Assembly (NCBI RefSeq): GCF_001429765.1
Contig: NZ_LMJB01000007.1
Location: 1 to 64,000, forward strand
Length of the DNA: 64,000 nucleotides
Direction of reading: 5' to 3'
Source: Flavobacterium sp. Root901
GTDB taxonomy: Bacteria; Bacteroidota; Bacteroidia; Flavobacteriales; Flavobacteriaceae
Shown here: positions 42,023 through 64,000 of the stretch, piece after piece
Position numbering within the stretch: the first letter of the stretch is position 1
Layout: every line of letters begins with the position of its first letter
Notes under the pieces: model-generated
Databases searched by the model: none
Told to the model about the DNA's origin: nothing
The model's input: the letters and a program-made list of their open reading frames with translations, nothing else
Program-made: the position numbers and the translations under genes

Positions 42023-45000
42023 ATGAAAAAAGCAAAACATATCGATAAGAGACCGGAAAACGAGGTACTTATCGCACTGCCAATCATAACAGATGAAAAA
42101 ACATCTAAAAGCAAAAAAATAGAACCTGAAGAAGCTGTCCTTACTGATGCAGAATTTTTAAAGATTTTATTGAAAGTAAAAAACGGTAACTTTTCCCAGC
42201 GTTTCCCTACCGATCAAAACGGAATAAAAAGATCGATTTGCGATACGCTGAATGAAATTATTGACCTGAATGAACGAATGGTTTTTGAGTTTCAAAAAGT
42301 TGGTAAAAGCATTGGTAAACAAGGAAAACTAACCAATCGGGTAGTTCTGGACGGAGCACGCGGTTCATGGAGTTCCTGCGTTGATTCTGTAAATACACTG
42401 ATTTCAGATCTGGTTCACCCAACAATTGAAATTGCACACGTAATTACGTCTGTTGCAAAAGGAAACTTATCTCAGGAAATGCCCTTATCTATTGAAGGAA
42501 ATCCGCTTCAGGGGGAATTCCTCAGAATTGCCAAAGAGGTAAACGGAATGGTAAAACAGCTGAACCTTTTCTCGATGGAGGTAACCCGTGTAGCACGTGA
42601 GGTAGGTACAGAAGGTAAACTGGGAGGTCAGGCAAAAGTTCGTGGTGTGGGTGGTGTATGGAAAGATTTGACCGACTCTGTAAATAAAATGGCAAGTAAC
42701 CTTACAGGCCAGGTACGTAATATTGCCGATGTAACAACTGCCGTGGCAAAAGGAGATTTGTCTAAAAAAATTACGGTTGACGTAAAAGGGGAAATCTTGG
42801 AATTAAAAAATACCATCAACACCATGGTGGATCAGCTGAACTCTTTCTCTTCTGAGGTAACCCGTGTGGCACGTGAGGTAGGTACAGAAGGAAAACTGGG
42901 AGGACAAGCGCAGGTAAAAGGTGTTGGTGGAACATGGAAAGATTTAACGGATTCGGTTAACCAGATGGCATCCAACTTAACCGGTCAGGTGCGTAACATT
43001 GCCGATGTAACCACAGCCGTGGCAAGAGGAGATTTATCTAAAAAAATTACGGTTGACGTAAAAGGAGAAATCTTAGAGCTGAAAGATACCATTAATACCA
43101 TGGTGGATCAGCTGAACTCCTTCTCTTCTGAGGTAACGCGTGTGGCGCGTGAAGTAGGTTCTGAAGGAAAACTGGGAGGTCAGGCAAAAGTACGAGGTGT
43201 TGGTGGTGTTTGGAAAGATTTAACAGATTCCGTTAACCAGATGGCTTCTAACTTAACCGGTCAGGTACGTAATATTGCCGAAGTAACAACAGCAGTAGCA
43301 AAAGGAGATTTATCTAAAAAAATTACCGTAAATGTAGAGGGGGAAATCCTCGAATTAAAAAATACCATCAATACCATGGTGGATCAGCTGAACTCATTTG
43401 GTGCCGAGGTAACCCGTGTGGCACGTGAGGTAGGTTCTGAAGGAAAACTGGGAGGTCAGGCAAAAGTAAAAGGTGTTGGTGGAACGTGGAAAGATTTAAC
43501 CGATTCGGTTAACCAGATGGCTTCTAACTTAACCGGTCAGGTACGTAACATTGCCGAGGTAACAACCGCTGTAGCCAATGGTGACCTTTCGAAAAAAATT
43601 ACGGCTGTTGCCGAAGGGGAAATCCTGGAGCTTAAAAAAACCATTAATACCATGGTGGATCAGCTGAACTCCTTCTCTTCTGAGGTAACGCGTGTGGCAC
43701 TTGAGGTTGGTACCGAAGGAAAATTGGGAGGTCAGGCAAAAGTAAAAGGTGTCGGCGGAACATGGAAAGATTTAACGGATTCGGTTAACCAGATGGCCTC
43801 TAACTTAACAGGTCAGGTACGTAATATCGCAGAGGTAACAACAGCCGTGGCAAAAGGAGATTTATCCCGTCAAATTACCGTTGATACCAAAGGAGAAATC
43901 TTAGAATTAAAAAACACCATTAACACGATGGTGGGGCAGCTGAATTCATTTGCATCTGAGGTAACCCGTGTGGCACGTGAGGTAGGAACTGAAGGAAAAC
44001 TGGGCGGACAGGCACAGGTGGAAGGTGTCGGCGGAACATGGAAAGATTTGACCGATTCGGTAAACCAGATGGCTTCTAACTTAACCGGTCAGGTACGTAA
44101 TATTGCCGAAGTAACGACGGCCGTAGCAAAAGGAGATTTATCGCTCCAGATTACGGTTGACGTAAAAGGAGAAATCTTAGAGTTAAAAAATACAATTAAT
44201 ACCATGGTGGATCAGCTTCGAGGCTTTGCTTCGGAGGTAACAAGGGTGTCACGAGAGGTAGGAACAGAAGGAAAACTGGGAGGACAGGCCAATGTGCCCG
44301 GAGTTGCAGGAACATGGAAAGATTTAACAGACTCTGTGAATCAAATGGCAGGAAACCTTACCGCTCAGGTACGTAATATTGCCGATGTGGCGATTGCCGT
44401 GGCAAATGGAGATATGTCCCGAAAAATTACCGTTGACGTTCGTGGGGAAATTCTTCAGCTGAAAGAAACCTTAAACACGATGGTGGACCAGCTGCGTGAA
44501 TTTGCCTCTGAAGTAACCCGTGTGGCGCGTGAGGTAGGTACCGAAGGAAAACTGGGCGGACAGGCCAATGTGCCGGGTGTTGCCGGAACATGGAAAGATT
44601 TGACAGATTCGGTGAACCAAATGGCTGGTAACTTAACGACTCAGGTACGTAATATTGCCGAGGTAACGATTGCCGTGGCAAATGGAGATATGTCGAAAAA
44701 AATTACAGCCGACGTACGTGGAGAGATTCTCCAATTGAAAGAAACCGTAAATACCATGGTGGATCAGCTTCGTGCCTTTGCCTCTGAGGTAACCCGTGTG
44801 GCGCGTGAGGTAGGAACTGACGGAAAATTAGGTGGACAGGCTTTTGTACCGGGTGTTGCCGGAACATGGAAAGATTTAACAGATTCGGTTAACCAAATGG
44901 CCTCTAACTTAACAGGACAGGTGCGTAATATTGCAGATGTAACCAAAGCCGTGGCAAATGGTGACCTTTCCAAACAAATTACCGTTGACGTAAAAGGAGA

Positions 45001-58024: not shown

Positions 58025-58618
58025 TTGAGAACAAGAGACATTAATAAGGAAGAATTAGTTAAAGAAAAAACTATAGAAATGATTGTAAAGTATGGCATCG
58101 AAGGCTTTACAATGAATAAACTTGCCAAAGAATGCGGTATTTCTGTAGCGACACTTTACATTTATTATGCTGACAAAGAAGATCTGATTAAGAAAATTGG
58201 AACTGAAATGGGCACTTACTTCTTTAAAAGTTCGCTTAAAGATTTTTCGCCGGATATGCCTTTTGCAGAAGGATTGGCCAAACAATGGGAAAACAGATCA
58301 GAGTTTATGCTGAAAAACACTGATAAAATTGCCTGTTGGGAAATTCTTCAAAACTCCAATTACGGTGAACATATCGTAAACGAGAGTTTAATTGAATTAA
58401 AAGAAATCATGATGCAGTTTTTACATGGTGCAATTAAGAGAAAGGAAATTGTACCTGTATCTAAAGAAGTATTCTGGAGCATTGCCTACGGGCCTTTATA
58501 TAATTTGCTTCGTTTTCATGAGAAAGGAAAAGGACTGGGGGGTACTACTCCATTTCAATTAACAAAGGATATTCAACAAGAGGCTTTTAGACTAGTGATA
58601 AAAGCATTAACACCTTAA
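58025..58618 (+). CDS. TetR-family transcriptional regulator
   Basis: A 197-residue repressor with the N-terminal helix-turn-helix GFTMNKLAKECGISVATLYIYYADKEDLI (about 29-57) and a helical ligand domain. The start is unusual: the only suitable codon is TTG at 58025, since an in-frame stop lies just upstream and the next ATG would remove part of the first DNA-binding helix. It heads an operon with a small protein and an MFS transporter and probably represses all three. Confidence 0.88.
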   Translation: MRTRDINKEELVKEKTIEMIVKYGIEGFTMNKLAKECGISVATLYIYYADKEDLIKKIGTEMGTYFFKSSLKDFSPDMPFAEGLAKQWENRSEFMLKNTDKIACWEILQNSNYGEHIVNESLIELKEIMMQFLHGAIKRKEIVPVSKEVFWSIAYGPLYNLLRFHEKGKGLGGTTPFQLTKDIQQEAFRLVIKALTP

Positions 58619-58844: not shown

Positions 58845-60086
58845 ATGAACGAAAAACAAACTCTCGCACCCGGTTTTAATGGCTATCAAAAACTGGTAAT
58901 ATTTCTTTTAGCCATGACACAATTTACTGTTGTGCTGGATTTTATGGTAATGTCGCCGCTTGGTGATATTATGATGAAAACCTTAAAAATTACGGCATCG
59001 CAGTTTGGTATTGCCGTATCTGCTTATGCCTTCAGCGCCGGAATTTCGGGATTGCTTACAGCAGGTTTTGCAGATAAATTTGACCGAAAAAAATTGCTTC
59101 TTTTCTTTTATATCGGATTTACAATCGGGACTTTATTCTGCGCACTGGCACCAAACTTTTTTCTTTTGGTTGCGGCGCGTATTTTTACCGGATTATTTGG
59201 CGGTGTAATTGGTTCCATTTCACTGGCTATTGTTGCTGATTTGTTCAGTCTTCAACAGCGGGGAAAAGTAATGGGATTTATCCAGATGGGATTCGGCGTA
59301 AGCCAGGTTCTCGGTATTCCGATTGGTTTATACATTGCAAACCAATGGGGCTGGCATGTTCCGTTTTTATGGATCGCTGCTATGGCTGCCATTATCACGA
59401 TTATCCTGTACATTAGATTAAAACCTGTTAACGAGCATTTAAAACTAAAACAGGAAAAAACAGCGTTACTGCATTTACTCCATACGATTTCGAAAAAAAA
59501 TTATCAGGTTGGGTTTTTAGCTACTGCGCTGCTTTCTATTGGCGGTTTTATGATGATGCCTTTTGGAAGTGCGTTTGCCATTAACAACCTTAAAGTAACA
59601 AATGAACAACTGCCTTTGTTATTCATGATTACCGGAATTGCAACTTTAATTACAATGCCTTTCATTGGTAAACTGAGTGATAAAGTAAACAAATTTAAAA
59701 TTTTTGCATTTGCTACTGTATCTGCGGTGATTTTAATTAATATTTATTCGCATTTTGGTCCAACTCCATTTTACATAGTGCTGCTGATTAATGTATTTAT
59801 GATGGCCACAATTATGAGCAGAATGGTTCCGGCAACAACATTGACCTCTGCAATTCCGGATCCTCATGATCGTGGTGCATTTATGAGTATTAACTCTTCT
59901 TTACAGCAGATGGCAGGAGGCTTTGGTGCTGTAATTGCCGGGTTAATCATTTATCAAAAAGACAGTTATGCTCCGCTGGAACATTATGATATTTTAGCAA
60001 TGGTGGCTTCCGGAATTATGTTACTTACTATATTTTTAGTATTCAGAGTAAGTAAAATTGTAGATCAGAAAACATCAAAATTATAA
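58845..60086 (+). CDS. MFS transporter
   Basis: A 413-residue 12-segment major facilitator of the drug-proton antiporter type, with the loop 2-3 motif GFADKFDRKKLL and the segment RIFTGLFGGVIGSISLAIVADLF. The TetR gene upstream supports export of a toxic compound or a metabolite. A strong terminator follows. Confidence 0.92.
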   Translation: MNEKQTLAPGFNGYQKLVIFLLAMTQFTVVLDFMVMSPLGDIMMKTLKITASQFGIAVSAYAFSAGISGLLTAGFADKFDRKKLLLFFYIGFTIGTLFCALAPNFFLLVAARIFTGLFGGVIGSISLAIVADLFSLQQRGKVMGFIQMGFGVSQVLGIPIGLYIANQWGWHVPFLWIAAMAAIITIILYIRLKPVNEHLKLKQEKTALLHLLHTISKKNYQVGFLATALLSIGGFMMMPFGSAFAINNLKVTNEQLPLLFMITGIATLITMPFIGKLSDKVNKFKIFAFATVSAVILINIYSHFGPTPFYIVLLINVFMMATIMSRMVPATTLTSAIPDPHDRGAFMSINSSLQQMAGGFGAVIAGLIIYQKDSYAPLEHYDILAMVASGIMLLTIFLVFRVSKIVDQKTSKL

Positions 60087-60557: not shown

Positions 60558-60980
60558 ATGGAACCCAATTCCCACATCAAACTCTTTTTAGAGGTTTCAG
60601 CACTTCTGACAGGTTTCAGTAAAATGGAACTCAAATCTACCGGAATGCTCGAAACTTACTACAACACCATTCAAAAAAACATGGACAAACAAGACATCGA
60701 TTATTTTTTTCTCGATGTTCATGTACTTCTAAACGATCAGTCTCATCAGGATATTGAAGATGCTCTGGCTTCTCAGTTTATGGCCGCTTCATCGTACAAT
60801 GGTCTTGCAGCAAATATCATCATCCTTTGGTATACCGGAAACTGGGGAATCGAAGTAGTATCATCTGCTTCGTACGTTCAGGGACTTATGTGGAATGCGG
60901 CGCACTCACATCCGCCGGGAGCAAAACAACCTGGCTACGGCTCATGGGCAGAACGTCCTCTTACAGTTAAAAATTCATAA
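60558..60980 (+). CDS. Small-subunit-like protein of a GMC dehydrogenase
   Basis: A 140-residue protein resembling the small (chaperone) subunit of FAD sugar dehydrogenases (FAD-SLDH family), with FLEVSALLTGF near the start, an IIILWYTGNWG strand region and a WNAAHSHPPGAKQPGYGSWAERP segment at the end. Unlike the usual subunits it has no Tat or Sec signal peptide, so the complex here may stay in the cytosol. It is 16 bp upstream of the GMC gene. Confidence 0.7.
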   Translation: MEPNSHIKLFLEVSALLTGFSKMELKSTGMLETYYNTIQKNMDKQDIDYFFLDVHVLLNDQSHQDIEDALASQFMAASSYNGLAANIIILWYTGNWGIEVVSSASYVQGLMWNAAHSHPPGAKQPGYGSWAERPLTVKNS

Positions 60981-60996
60981 CAAAAACGGTATTCAA

Positions 60997-62877
60997 ATGG
61001 AAAATAATTATGATGTAGTAATAGTTGGTTCTGGAATTGCAGGATCAATAATAGCTAAAGTTCTTACCAATGCAGGTAAGAAAGTTTTAATGCTCGAGGC
61101 TGGCCTTTCGGCAGGAATGGCACTGGATCAGGATGCTAATTACAGAAACTATCAGGACTATATAAATACATTTTATACCGCTTCTGCAAAAGTTCCAAAT
61201 TCGCCTTATCCGAATATAAAAGATGCACCTTCCATCAATGTTCTCGATATTGAGAAGATACCAAAAAACAGACCCGCAACAAAAGGTTATCTGGTACAAA
61301 TGGGTCCGCTTCCTTTTGCAAGTGATAACACAAGAGCTCCCGGCGGAACTACTTTACACTGGCTTGGAACAACACTCAGAATGCTTCCAAACGATTTTGT
61401 GATGAAATCTAAATACGGAGTTGGTGTCGACTGGCCAATTAAGTACGAAGATATGTCGCGTTATTATCAAATGGCCGAAAACGAAATTGGCGTTTCAGGA
61501 AATGTTGACGATCAGCATTATCCTATCGAACAAAAAAACATTTTTGGTCCGGATTATGTTTTTCCAATGAAGGCAATTCCAACGAGTTACCTTGACGGCG
61601 TAATGAAAAAGGTAATCGACGAAAACAGCAAAATTATACTTAATGATAAAGCATATCAATTGTATACCATTAGTACGCCGCAGGGACGAAATTCAATTCC
61701 GAATCCTGATTACAATATCAGAGGTGTAGAATGGAATCGTGCTTCAAAAACATTAGATCTGATCAAAAGTGAATTTGGAGATTATGATCCTGTTGGTTCA
61801 AACTGGGATCAGTATAGGGGTCAGCGCTGCGAAGGAAATGCGAGCTGCGTACCAATTTGTCCGGTTCAGGCTAAATACAACGCCATAAAAACATTCAAAA
61901 AATCTGATATGGGAAATCTTGTTGTAAAAACACAAGCCGTAGCTTCCCGACTGCTGATCAACGAAACTTCAAACTGGATAAACGGCGTTGAATATAAAAC
62001 ATATATTAAAGGTTCTTCTTCTGAATATGAAACACATACTGCAAAAGGAACTTTGTATGTAATGGCCTGCAGCGCAATCGAAAATGCTAAATTATTATTG
62101 GCTTCCGGAGCAGCAAACAGCAGCGATCAGGTTGGTCGTAATTTAATGGACCACATGACAGTTTTAAGATGGGGATTAGCAAAAGAGCGTATTTATCCTT
62201 ATCGCGGCCCGGGTTCTACCTCAAACATTCCAACTTTTAGAGACGGGGAATTTCGTAAAGACCACGCTGCCTGGATTCTCCCGTTAGACAACTGGGGCTG
62301 GGCATGGCCGACAGGATCACCTGCTACTGATGTCATTAATGCGGTAAATGAAGGCATTATAGGAAAAAAACTTCGTGCCAAAATTGAAAATACGGTAACG
62401 CGTCAATTCTTTACCCATTTCGAATGCGAACAAGCGCCGGATCCCGATAATCGTGTCACAATCGATCCTCAATACAAAGATAATATTGGTAATTACAGAC
62501 CAGTAATTCATTATAAAGCAACAGAATATATGCTAAAAGCATTTGAAGCCACAGGAATTGTTTCTGAGCAGATGTTCAGTCAGTGCGGTATCGAAGATTT
62601 TACATCTTATAATCCTGCTACTGATGCTGATTATGTGACTTACAAAGGCAAAGGATACACTTTTGCAGGTGCAGGACACATTGTAGGTACACACAGAATG
62701 GGATTTTCAAAGGAAGATTCTGTTGTAGATGCCAATATGCGCACCTGGGACCACGAAAATCTTTATCTGGTTGGCTGCGGAAATATGCCCACGCTTGGTA
62801 CTTCAAACCCAACTCTAACCATGTCTGCTTTAACTTTTAAAGCGGCAGAAGCTATTCTTAAACAACTTGAACAATAA
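60997..62877 (+). CDS. FAD-dependent GMC oxidoreductase with 3Fe-4S cysteine pattern
   Basis: A 626-residue flavoprotein. The FAD loop is VVIVGSGIAG (G11, G13, G16) and the C-terminal GTHRMG and GTSNPTLTMSAL belong to the GMC family. The segment with C278, C284 and C288 (C-x5-C-x3-C) matches the 3Fe-4S motif of FAD glucose and fructose dehydrogenases, which hand electrons onward. It probably oxidises a sugar or polyol; the substrate is unknown. The ATG at 60997 is chosen since it gives the standard N-terminus; an earlier ATG at 60895 overlaps the small-subunit gene. Confidence 0.9.
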   Translation: MENNYDVVIVGSGIAGSIIAKVLTNAGKKVLMLEAGLSAGMALDQDANYRNYQDYINTFYTASAKVPNSPYPNIKDAPSINVLDIEKIPKNRPATKGYLVQMGPLPFASDNTRAPGGTTLHWLGTTLRMLPNDFVMKSKYGVGVDWPIKYEDMSRYYQMAENEIGVSGNVDDQHYPIEQKNIFGPDYVFPMKAIPTSYLDGVMKKVIDENSKIILNDKAYQLYTISTPQGRNSIPNPDYNIRGVEWNRASKTLDLIKSEFGDYDPVGSNWDQYRGQRCEGNASCVPICPVQAKYNAIKTFKKSDMGNLVVKTQAVASRLLINETSNWINGVEYKTYIKGSSSEYETHTAKGTLYVMACSAIENAKLLLASGAANSSDQVGRNLMDHMTVLRWGLAKERIYPYRGPGSTSNIPTFRDGEFRKDHAAWILPLDNWGWAWPTGSPATDVINAVNEGIIGKKLRAKIENTVTRQFFTHFECEQAPDPDNRVTIDPQYKDNIGNYRPVIHYKATEYMLKAFEATGIVSEQMFSQCGIEDFTSYNPATDADYVTYKGKGYTFAGAGHIVGTHRMGFSKEDSVVDANMRTWDHENLYLVGCGNMPTLGTSNPTLTMSALTFKAAEAILKQLEQ

Positions 62878-62883
62878 CTCATT

Positions 62884-64000
62884 ATGGAAAATAAATTATT
62901 TCAAAAGAACAACCCAAATCGTCAAAAGCTAATTAAACCAATTGCAGATTTGGATATAAACGAAGAGGTTTACTCAGTTGCGACAGATAATACCTTTCTG
63001 GCCGATAATGAACTTAGTGTCGCACCGGCAATAACGGCTAAAAGTGCAAAAGGGATTTCGTTGAAAATGTCAAAAAGAGATGTAAAAAATTACATCAAAG
63101 ATCTTAAACATCTTCAGGACTGTCTTAGGACTGCTTTACAGCTGGAACTTTCTACAATTCCACCTTATTTATGCGGACTTTATACGATTAAGGAAGGAAG
63201 CAATGTTGAAGCCGCAGCACTTATCAGGAGTGTTGTGGTTGAGGAAATGCTTCACATGGTTTTGGTTTCAAATATTCTGAACGCCATTACAGATCCGGAA
63301 ACGATTAAAAAAGGAGAAAAACTTTTTAATGTAAAAGATATTATTCCGGTATACCCTACTCCGCTTCCGGGCGGCATTGTTCCTGAAGTTCCTAAAGGAT
63401 CACCGCCGTTTGAAGTCCATCTTTTAAAATTCTCCAGAGAAGCATTGGAAGAATTTTCTACAATCGAAAGACCATCAGATCCTAAGGCTCCAATTACGGG
63501 ACATTTTGATAGTATCGGCCAGTTTTATGAAGCGATTCGTTACGGTTTACTTCGTTTAAATGAGTCTACACCCGGAGGAATTTTCAAAGGTGATCCAAGC
63601 CGTCAGATTACTGCTGAGCATTATTACGGAAGCGGTGGTAAAATTACCAAAGTCGTAAACTATGAAGATGCCGAAGAAGCAATTGGAGAAATTGTAGGTC
63701 AGGGCGAAGGAATCGACGGAACGATTGCTACAGAACAGGTTTTGTTTGGAGAAGATATTGAATATGCACATTATTTCAAATTTCAGGAAATCTCTTACGG
63801 AAGAATGTACAGCGCAAATGACACCAATTTTCAGATGCCTGTAAAAAGTATCCCGACAGGAAAACCATTTACAGTGAGCTGGTCTTCAGTATATAACATG
63901 AAAGCCAATCCAAAAATGACTGATTATGAACATAATCCTGAATTACTGGAAAAAGCCAAAGACTTCAATAAAGTGTATGTACAGCTCTTAAACGGAATAA
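62884..64000 (+). CDS. Ferritin-like protein (VioB-like domain), cut by window end
   Basis: At least 372 residues, running off the window without a stop. Residues 70-250 resemble the ferritin-like domain of VioB and related iminophenyl-pyruvate dimer synthases: LQLELSTIPPYLCG (E88), VVVEEMLHMVLVSN (E121, H124) and a GQFYEAI segment. The glutamate and histidine residues would bind a diiron centre or haem-like cofactor. It starts 6 bp after the GMC stop, so it is part of the same operon, and may act with the flavoenzyme or protect it. Confidence 0.8.
   Translation, partial: MENKLFQKNNPNRQKLIKPIADLDINEEVYSVATDNTFLADNELSVAPAITAKSAKGISLKMSKRDVKNYIKDLKHLQDCLRTALQLELSTIPPYLCGLYTIKEGSNVEAAALIRSVVVEEMLHMVLVSNILNAITDPETIKKGEKLFNVKDIIPVYPTPLPGGIVPEVPKGSPPFEVHLLKFSREALEEFSTIERPSDPKAPITGHFDSIGQFYEAIRYGLLRLNESTPGGIFKGDPSRQITAEHYYGSGGKITKVVNYEDAEEAIGEIVGQGEGIDGTIATEQVLFGEDIEYAHYFKFQEISYGRMYSANDTNFQMPVKSIPTGKPFTVSWSSVYNMKANPKMTDYEHNPELLEKAKDFNKVYVQLLNGI

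Follow-up and report, generated by a model that had tools for sequence, protein, structure and literature searches.

The window analyzed here comprises bases 1-64000 of contig C7 of the 5.0-Mb genome of Flavobacterium sp. Root901, and its right-hand end is represented in the comparisons below in locus L002. At its right-hand end the forward strand carries three consecutive genes, referred to here as the trio. The first (60558..60980, 140 aa) matched the dehydrogenase small-subunit family PF12318 at 27.5 bits against a cut-off of 24.2, and encodes a protein with neither a twin-arginine translocation (Tat) or Sec signal nor a cysteine. The second (60997..62877, 626 aa; PF00732/PF05199) encodes a GMC flavoprotein, the catalytic subunit; its longest frame starts at 60895, and 60997 is the likely start. 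Within it lies a C-x5-C-x3-C motif (61828..61860; residues 278, 284, and 288), the presumed [3Fe-4S] site. The third gene encodes a ferritin-like protein of family PF12902 (62884..64146 of the contig, 420 aa; 171.2 bits against a cut-off of 22.3), begins 6 bp after the GMC stop codon, and has its last 146 bp past the window edge at 64000. An earlier note made from the sequence had described this arrangement of motif-bearing GMC protein, small-subunit partner and closely spaced ferritin-like gene, and the profile scans bear it out.

The same note held that the proteins lack export signals and that no cytochrome follows the GMC gene, and both statements stood when the analysis was carried past the annotated starts and the window edge. 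Reading the frames upstream to a stop extended the small subunit by 13 codons and the ferritin-like protein by only 2, and formed no signal; motif and hydropathy checks detected no export signal from any start site of the window proteins. Beyond the window, the contig continues with genes for a PF03992 ABM protein, an FMP-family heme protein, a PF07876 protein, a PF01565/PF08031 flavoprotein, a PF06172 protein, a TetR regulator and an SDR protein. Profile scans of the window operon, including these genes, found no cytochrome gene.

Conservation of the trio was assessed in a locus sample obtained by searching genome contigs with the GMC alignment alone, using two peptide patterns, from which 80 of 97 confirmed stretches were retained; the sample favors close relatives, and Chryseobacterium is over-represented. 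BLAST of the frames placed the small subunit, GMC and ferritin-like genes together in 79/80 loci, and in the sole exception (L068) the contig ends just past the GMC gene. Because 79 of the 80 loci carry the trio, the pairing is not due to chance. The order small subunit-GMC-ferritin-like was found in 77 loci, and the order GMC-ferritin-like-small subunit in two Roseococcus loci. Based on the longest frames, the gap between GMC and ferritin-like genes never exceeded 50 bp (0/77; maximum 26 bp), and that between small subunit and GMC did so in 3/79 (counted over L002 and the loci of usual order).

In a phylum-wide sample of 395 genomes, the GMC branch occurred in 4 and PF12902 above cut-off in 13. 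All four GMC-branch genomes had PF12902 directly adjoining the GMC gene (Fisher p 7e-7, in a test that ignores kinship); two of them, G000 and G118, had contributed rows to the query, and one, G529, carries a divergent form. The trio ranges over at least four phyla, namely Bacteroidota, Pseudomonadota, Cyanobacteriota and a Verrucomicrobia bin. The GMC proteins of F. defluvii and Dyadobacter were 77% identical, compared to 54% between Flavobacterium and Chryseobacterium, which are closer kin. These identities, and the patchy presence of the branch in 4/395 genomes, suggest lateral transfer.

The nearest solved structures of the GMC protein were the Burkholderia glucose dehydrogenase (BcGDH, 6a2u) and the Gluconobacter fructose dehydrogenase (FDH, 7w2j). 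The excerpted text of the BcGDH report gives Cys212, Cys218 and Cys222 as the ligands of its [3Fe-4S] cluster, and describes the small subunit as a Tat hitchhiker and the cluster as delivering electrons to the cytochrome subunit (PMC6719666). The window motif, C-EGNAS-C-VPI-C, aligned its cysteines with these three ligands, the first falling on Cys212 and not on Cys213. In the alignment, the three cysteines were present in 81/81 GMC proteins, as was the catalytic His, and the catalytic Asn was present in 80/81, the remaining protein having a gap. The GMC protein would presumably carry an assembled [3Fe-4S] cluster. The position of BcGDH Cys213, which is disulfide-bonded to Cys152 of the small subunit according to the same excerpts (PMC6719666), was occupied by Glu in 79/81 and by Gln in 2/81. 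Loss of the disulfide cysteines proves nothing by itself, because exported complexes also fail to conserve them (PMC6719666). A pyranose oxidase identity of the GMC protein was rejected (TIGR02462, 82.4 bits against a cut-off of 544.9).

With PF12318, the exported Pantoea small subunit reached 128.9 bits, and that of the Rhizobium trio gave no match at E 1e-4. Comparison of the window small subunit with the PDB by sequence gave no real match (best E 0.61). The frame was devoid of cysteine in 73/81 cases, and an RR-like string appeared in 1/81 (L101), ahead of a later ATG; in the small subunit of plasmid locus L176, an Arg-rich start likewise precedes a later ATG. Any frame with a C-x2-C-H motif within 8 kb was found at 7/81 loci, in no case less than 500 bp from the trio.

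Plasmids provided the relatives with which the trio could be compared. There were 158 plasmid records with a GMC match, and 20 regions were taken via GMC or ferritin-like hits, 19 of them with a GMC gene. Most of these relatives were of one of two kinds, linked either to the ferritin-like gene or to another acceptor gene. The trio was present in half of these regions (10/20; L166-L170, L172-L174, L176, and L184), in Ruegeria, Rhizobium (two), Sinorhizobium meliloti, Pararhizobium, Pseudoalteromonas, Agrobacterium larrymoorei, Gloeothece, Persicobacter and Cupriavidus. In four other regions (L177, L178, L182, and L185), from Pantoea, Mycetohabitans, A. tumefaciens and Rahnella, a cytochrome c gene directly followed the GMC gene, and in Skermanella (L179:3346-7220) a multicopper oxidase gene occupied the same position. 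All five exported plasmid relatives carried CC at the GMC motif, and their small subunits had both a Tat-type RR motif and a cysteine; among the five trio small subunits compared with them, none had the RR motif and four were cysteine-free. A Streptomyces region (L181) held a GMC gene for which no partner was identified, and L171 held a ferritin-like frame, with no GMC gene found in the region.

In a midpoint-rooted tree of 48 GMC proteins, a branch with 100/99 support set apart the 38 ferritin-linked rows, and another branch did the same for the four cytochrome-linked rows. The tree omits L184, whose frames are split, and L172, which has two GMC genes, one of them divided between frames. Among the ferritin-linked rows, those of L169 and L173 (first GMC copies) represent second GMC genes, the ferritin-like gene of the operon following the other copy. 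The G529 trio fell outside the ferritin-linked branch, on a long branch of unsure placement, and the ferritin pairing would therefore need at least two changes.

Within the ferritin-like protein, E88, E120, E121, H124 and H296 were invariant in 80/80 sequences and E293 was present in 77/80. Residues E88, E121, H124, E293 and H296 fit the ExxH pairs of a putative dinuclear metal site. The predicted model of the F. defluvii copy (L037, a close relative; predicted local distance difference test score, pLDDT, 81.7) matched 3hl1, the ferritin-like Caulobacter protein CC_0557, with Z 26.4 over 268 residues. The next matches were Dps proteins and nigerythrin near Z 10 and Mn-catalase at Z 8.2; scores of this size can be common among helical bundles. 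PF12902 is the domain shared with VioB. VioB (iminophenyl-pyruvate dimer synthase) is a protein of about 1000 residues encoded beside an amino-acid oxidase. The label "VioB-type" given in the earlier note thus holds for the shared domain, and fails for size and partner, the trio protein having 420 aa and lying beside a GMC gene. A 1080-residue PF12902 protein at L143:6077-9319, beside unrelated genes, is nearer to VioB in size. Other PF12902 genes of Bacteroidota (L140, L141, L142, L144, L145, L147, and L148) lie beside what we take to be pairs of DUF692-like and DUF2063-like genes; some of these stretches carry a small Cys-rich protein, and L140, L142 and L145 also an FMP-family gene. L142 and L145 include a flavin-type protein, recognized by eye, and a thiamine pyrophosphate enzyme; the flavin-type protein of L142 had no Pfam match at E 0.01.

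Heme peroxidase genes frequently accompany the trio. An FMP-family gene was found in 60/80 loci, starting at most 2.6 kb past the end of the ferritin-like gene except in L054, where it lies upstream; in the window operon it is the next gene but one after the ferritin-like gene. FMP presumably stands for Flavobacterium meningosepticum peroxidase, an enzyme reportedly described in 1999 (cited in PMC3084812). The copy in genome G118, whose trio resembles the Chryseobacterium loci, passed the narrow NCBI model for FMP-type peroxidases (NF040571, 608 against 300 bits), whereas the window copy passed only the broader heme-binding model (NF040572, 274 against 150 bits) and fell below the cut-off of the narrow one (101 against 300 bits). 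Two rhizobial copies likewise passed NF040572 only. The FMP protein had no sequence match in the PDB, and the predicted fold of the L037 copy was a nitrobindin barrel (pLDDT 79.4; Z 17.2 to 2fr2). Two Chryseobacterium loci have, downstream of the trio, another GMC gene that is more distant (L110:16355 and L111:16527), with a second FMP-family gene after it. Across the 395 genomes, FMP was above cut-off in 10, and 9 of these also had PF12902, compared to 13/395 overall, the two not always being neighbors; by genera, 5 had both, 3 PF12902 only, none FMP only and 162 neither (p 5e-8). Peroxidases of other families were found elsewhere. In Gloeothece a DyP-type peroxidase precedes the trio (107.8 against 100.5 bits), DyP-like genes below cut-off occur in L042 and L043, and in G529 an animal-type peroxidase precedes it (PF03098, 88.4 against 25 bits). 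The presence of three unrelated peroxidase families next to one module points to an involvement of H2O2.

In a rival explanation, the GMC protein would be an ordinary oxidase that uses oxygen, and its H2O2 would be removed by the ferritin-like protein in a catalase-like manner, at a dinuclear Mn or Fe site; the heme peroxidase would serve as a second sink. This scavenging role is the main competitor of the electron-acceptor reading, and we rate it as rather unlikely. It would account for the way in which FMP genes track PF12902, for the resemblance of the L037 ferritin-like model to Mn-catalase, and for the presence of PF12902 beside other oxidases, both in the available portion of a report on fungal LodA-like quinoproteins (PMC4417212) and beside the flavin-type proteins of L142 and L145. 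The last observation fits either a scavenging or a coupling role. However, the cluster cysteines, invariant in 81/81 proteins, are not obviously needed by an oxidase, and among the exported relatives a cytochrome c or multicopper oxidase gene fills the slot after GMC. The structural resemblance is also within the range common for helical bundles, and identity with manganese catalase was rejected by profile (PF05067, 13.2 bits against a cut-off of 27).

The genes around the trio differ between hosts. Five plasmid regions, from Rhizobium, Sinorhizobium, Pararhizobium, A. larrymoorei and Pseudoalteromonas, combine it with GH15, iolE and a TIM-barrel isomerase-like gene, and two of the five also hold an FMP gene. 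The Rhizobium iolE, the sole copy scanned, matched TIGR04379 at 300 against 290 bits. From its gene content, the rhizobial-type operon looks like one for sugar or cyclitol breakdown. The Flavobacterium operon has no GH15, iolE or isomerase gene and holds other oxidative genes instead, so the substrate may differ between branches. The earlier note had offered two interpretations, an unusual electron acceptor or a biosynthetic oxidation. The former is favored by the lack of an export signal and of a cytochrome, together with the cytochrome c or multicopper oxidase in the corresponding slot of exported relatives; the latter is neither shown nor excluded, the rhizobial operon being catabolic in appearance.

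Another proposal casts the ferritin-like protein as a diiron oxygenase or coupling enzyme that would act on the GMC product, in the way that VioB acts after the flavin oxidase VioA, with the GMC protein possibly also serving as its reductase. The domain shared with VioB and the additional oxidative genes of the window operon (ABM, BBE flavoprotein, and FMP heme protein) are consistent with this. The trio by itself, with no further partners, in loci such as L058 and L059, and the catabolic setting of the rhizobial trio argue against it, and we consider it distinctly unlikely.

Taken together, the trio very probably forms one cytosolic functional unit. The best explanation overall is that it represents a cytosolic branch of the FAD (flavin adenine dinucleotide)/[3Fe-4S] sugar-dehydrogenase complexes, in which the small subunit lacks an export signal and the ferritin-like protein stands at the position of the exported relatives' cytochrome. 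In its favor, pairwise identities of the GMC protein correlated with those of the ferritin-like protein (0.91) and the small subunit (0.90) among 30 representatives, without control for shared ancestry. The GMC subunit would oxidize an alcohol group of a sugar, cyclitol or similar compound via FAD, and electrons would pass singly from FAD to the [3Fe-4S] cluster, which the small subunit would shield. The cluster would then reduce the ferritin-like protein at its dinuclear metal site, and this protein would pass electrons to oxygen, yielding H2O2 or water. A heme peroxidase, where the operon has one (usually of the FMP family), would consume the H2O2. The chances of this route from the GMC cluster through the ferritin-like protein to oxygen are about even. 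The sequences themselves show the trio and its conservation, the missing export signals, the cluster and catalytic residues, the lack of a cytochrome gene in the window operon and the neighboring peroxidases. Assembly of the cluster, iron as the metal of the ferritin-like protein, its reduction by the cluster, the oxygen chemistry and the type of substrate are what we infer. A more specific version is put forward tentatively, as possible rather than probable. In it, the ferritin-like protein would take electrons directly from the cluster and act as a diiron terminal oxidase or oxygenase; alcohol oxidation would drive it, with no need for NAD(P)H, quinone or cytochrome, and its H2O2 would go to the co-encoded heme peroxidase.

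Several observations weigh against assigning the ferritin-like protein the role of electron acceptor, in addition to the occurrence of PF12902 beside other oxidases. At the Chitinophaga loci L065 and L067, a frame containing a single C-x2-C-H lies some 600 bp upstream of the trio, and 19/80 loci have no FMP-family gene despite more than 3 kb of downstream coverage. The divergent G529 ferritin-like protein keeps the first ExxH (EMMH) and lacks the second. In Azospirillum L175, sister to the ferritin branch, an upstream gene with one C-x2-C-H and no Pfam match at E 1e-4 is annotated as cytochrome C, and the region shows no Tat motif. Finally, plasmid regions L180 and L183 keep the cysteine motif, have a small subunit without RR, and adjoin neither a ferritin-like nor a cytochrome gene; therefore, such a GMC protein can do without either. 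The GMC genes of both regions adjoin aminotransferase and kinase genes.

These two regions also bear on the idea of the ferritin-like protein as an iron store or chaperone that feeds the [3Fe-4S] cluster, for which its fold and its strict pairing with a presumed iron-sulfur protein could be cited. Neither L180 and L183 nor the cytochrome-linked relatives, which have the same three cysteines, include a ferritin-like gene in the stretches taken, making this idea very improbable.

Upstream of the trio, the window contains two accessory genes on the forward strand. An MFS transporter gene (58845..60086; PF07690) belongs to a cluster found in 7/80 loci, six of them Flavobacterium (L037-L041 and L052) and the other L096, and thus mostly in close Flavobacterium loci; a TetR-type regulator gene (58025..58618; PF00440) belongs to a cluster found in 6/80. 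Downstream, the intergenic stretch separating the ferritin-like gene from the ABM gene (L002:8148-8308, contig C7 64147-64307) contains a 12-bp inverted repeat, as well as a palindrome resembling GTGCCTAACGGCAC. This sequence is partly common to L037 and L038, was not seen in L039-L041 or L052, and looks like a small mobile repeat. Elsewhere in the window, the minus strand carries three identical copies of a 14-mer, at 42596-42609, 42872-42885 and 44528-44541.

The observation from which this work started was correct and understated. Glucose and fructose dehydrogenases used in biosensors are understood as exported enzymes that depend on a small subunit carried by Tat and on a multi-heme cytochrome. 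What is new here are cytosolic, ferritin-linked relatives of these cytochrome-linked FAD dehydrogenases. Among the matches listed in a search of the open-access literature (titles and abstract openings), none described the trio or its rhizobial operon. A unit in a CauloKO paper was rejected, the GMC gene (1278) and ferritin-like gene (1732) being far apart by number in the portion available (PMC13001252). If true, the proposal would provide a new electron outlet for flavin dehydrogenases and a function for a set of PF12902 proteins, and would suggest cytochrome-free, oxygen-coupled sugar oxidation. The ferritin- and cytochrome-linked branches can be separated by short sequence marks, and the idea is therefore directly testable.

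Compared to known systems, the trio combines familiar parts in a different way. With VioB-type PF12902 proteins, represented by 3hl1, it shares domain and fold, whereas its ferritin-like protein is a stand-alone protein of 420 aa with a GMC/[3Fe-4S]-type dehydrogenase as its partner and VioB is found beside an amino-acid oxidase. The fungal LodA/LodB quinoprotein oxidases are alike in pairing an oxidase with an adjoining PF12902 gene, and differ in that the oxidase is unrelated to GMC; the portion of the report available mentions neither a PF12318-type small subunit nor the cluster motif (PMC4417212). The closest resemblance is to the BcGDH and FDH complexes, with which the trio has in common the GMC fold by sequence, the His/Asn pair, the three [3Fe-4S] cysteines and the PF12318 small subunit. 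Unlike these complexes, it has no Tat signal, no disulfide cysteine and no cytochrome, and carries a ferritin-like gene in place of the latter.

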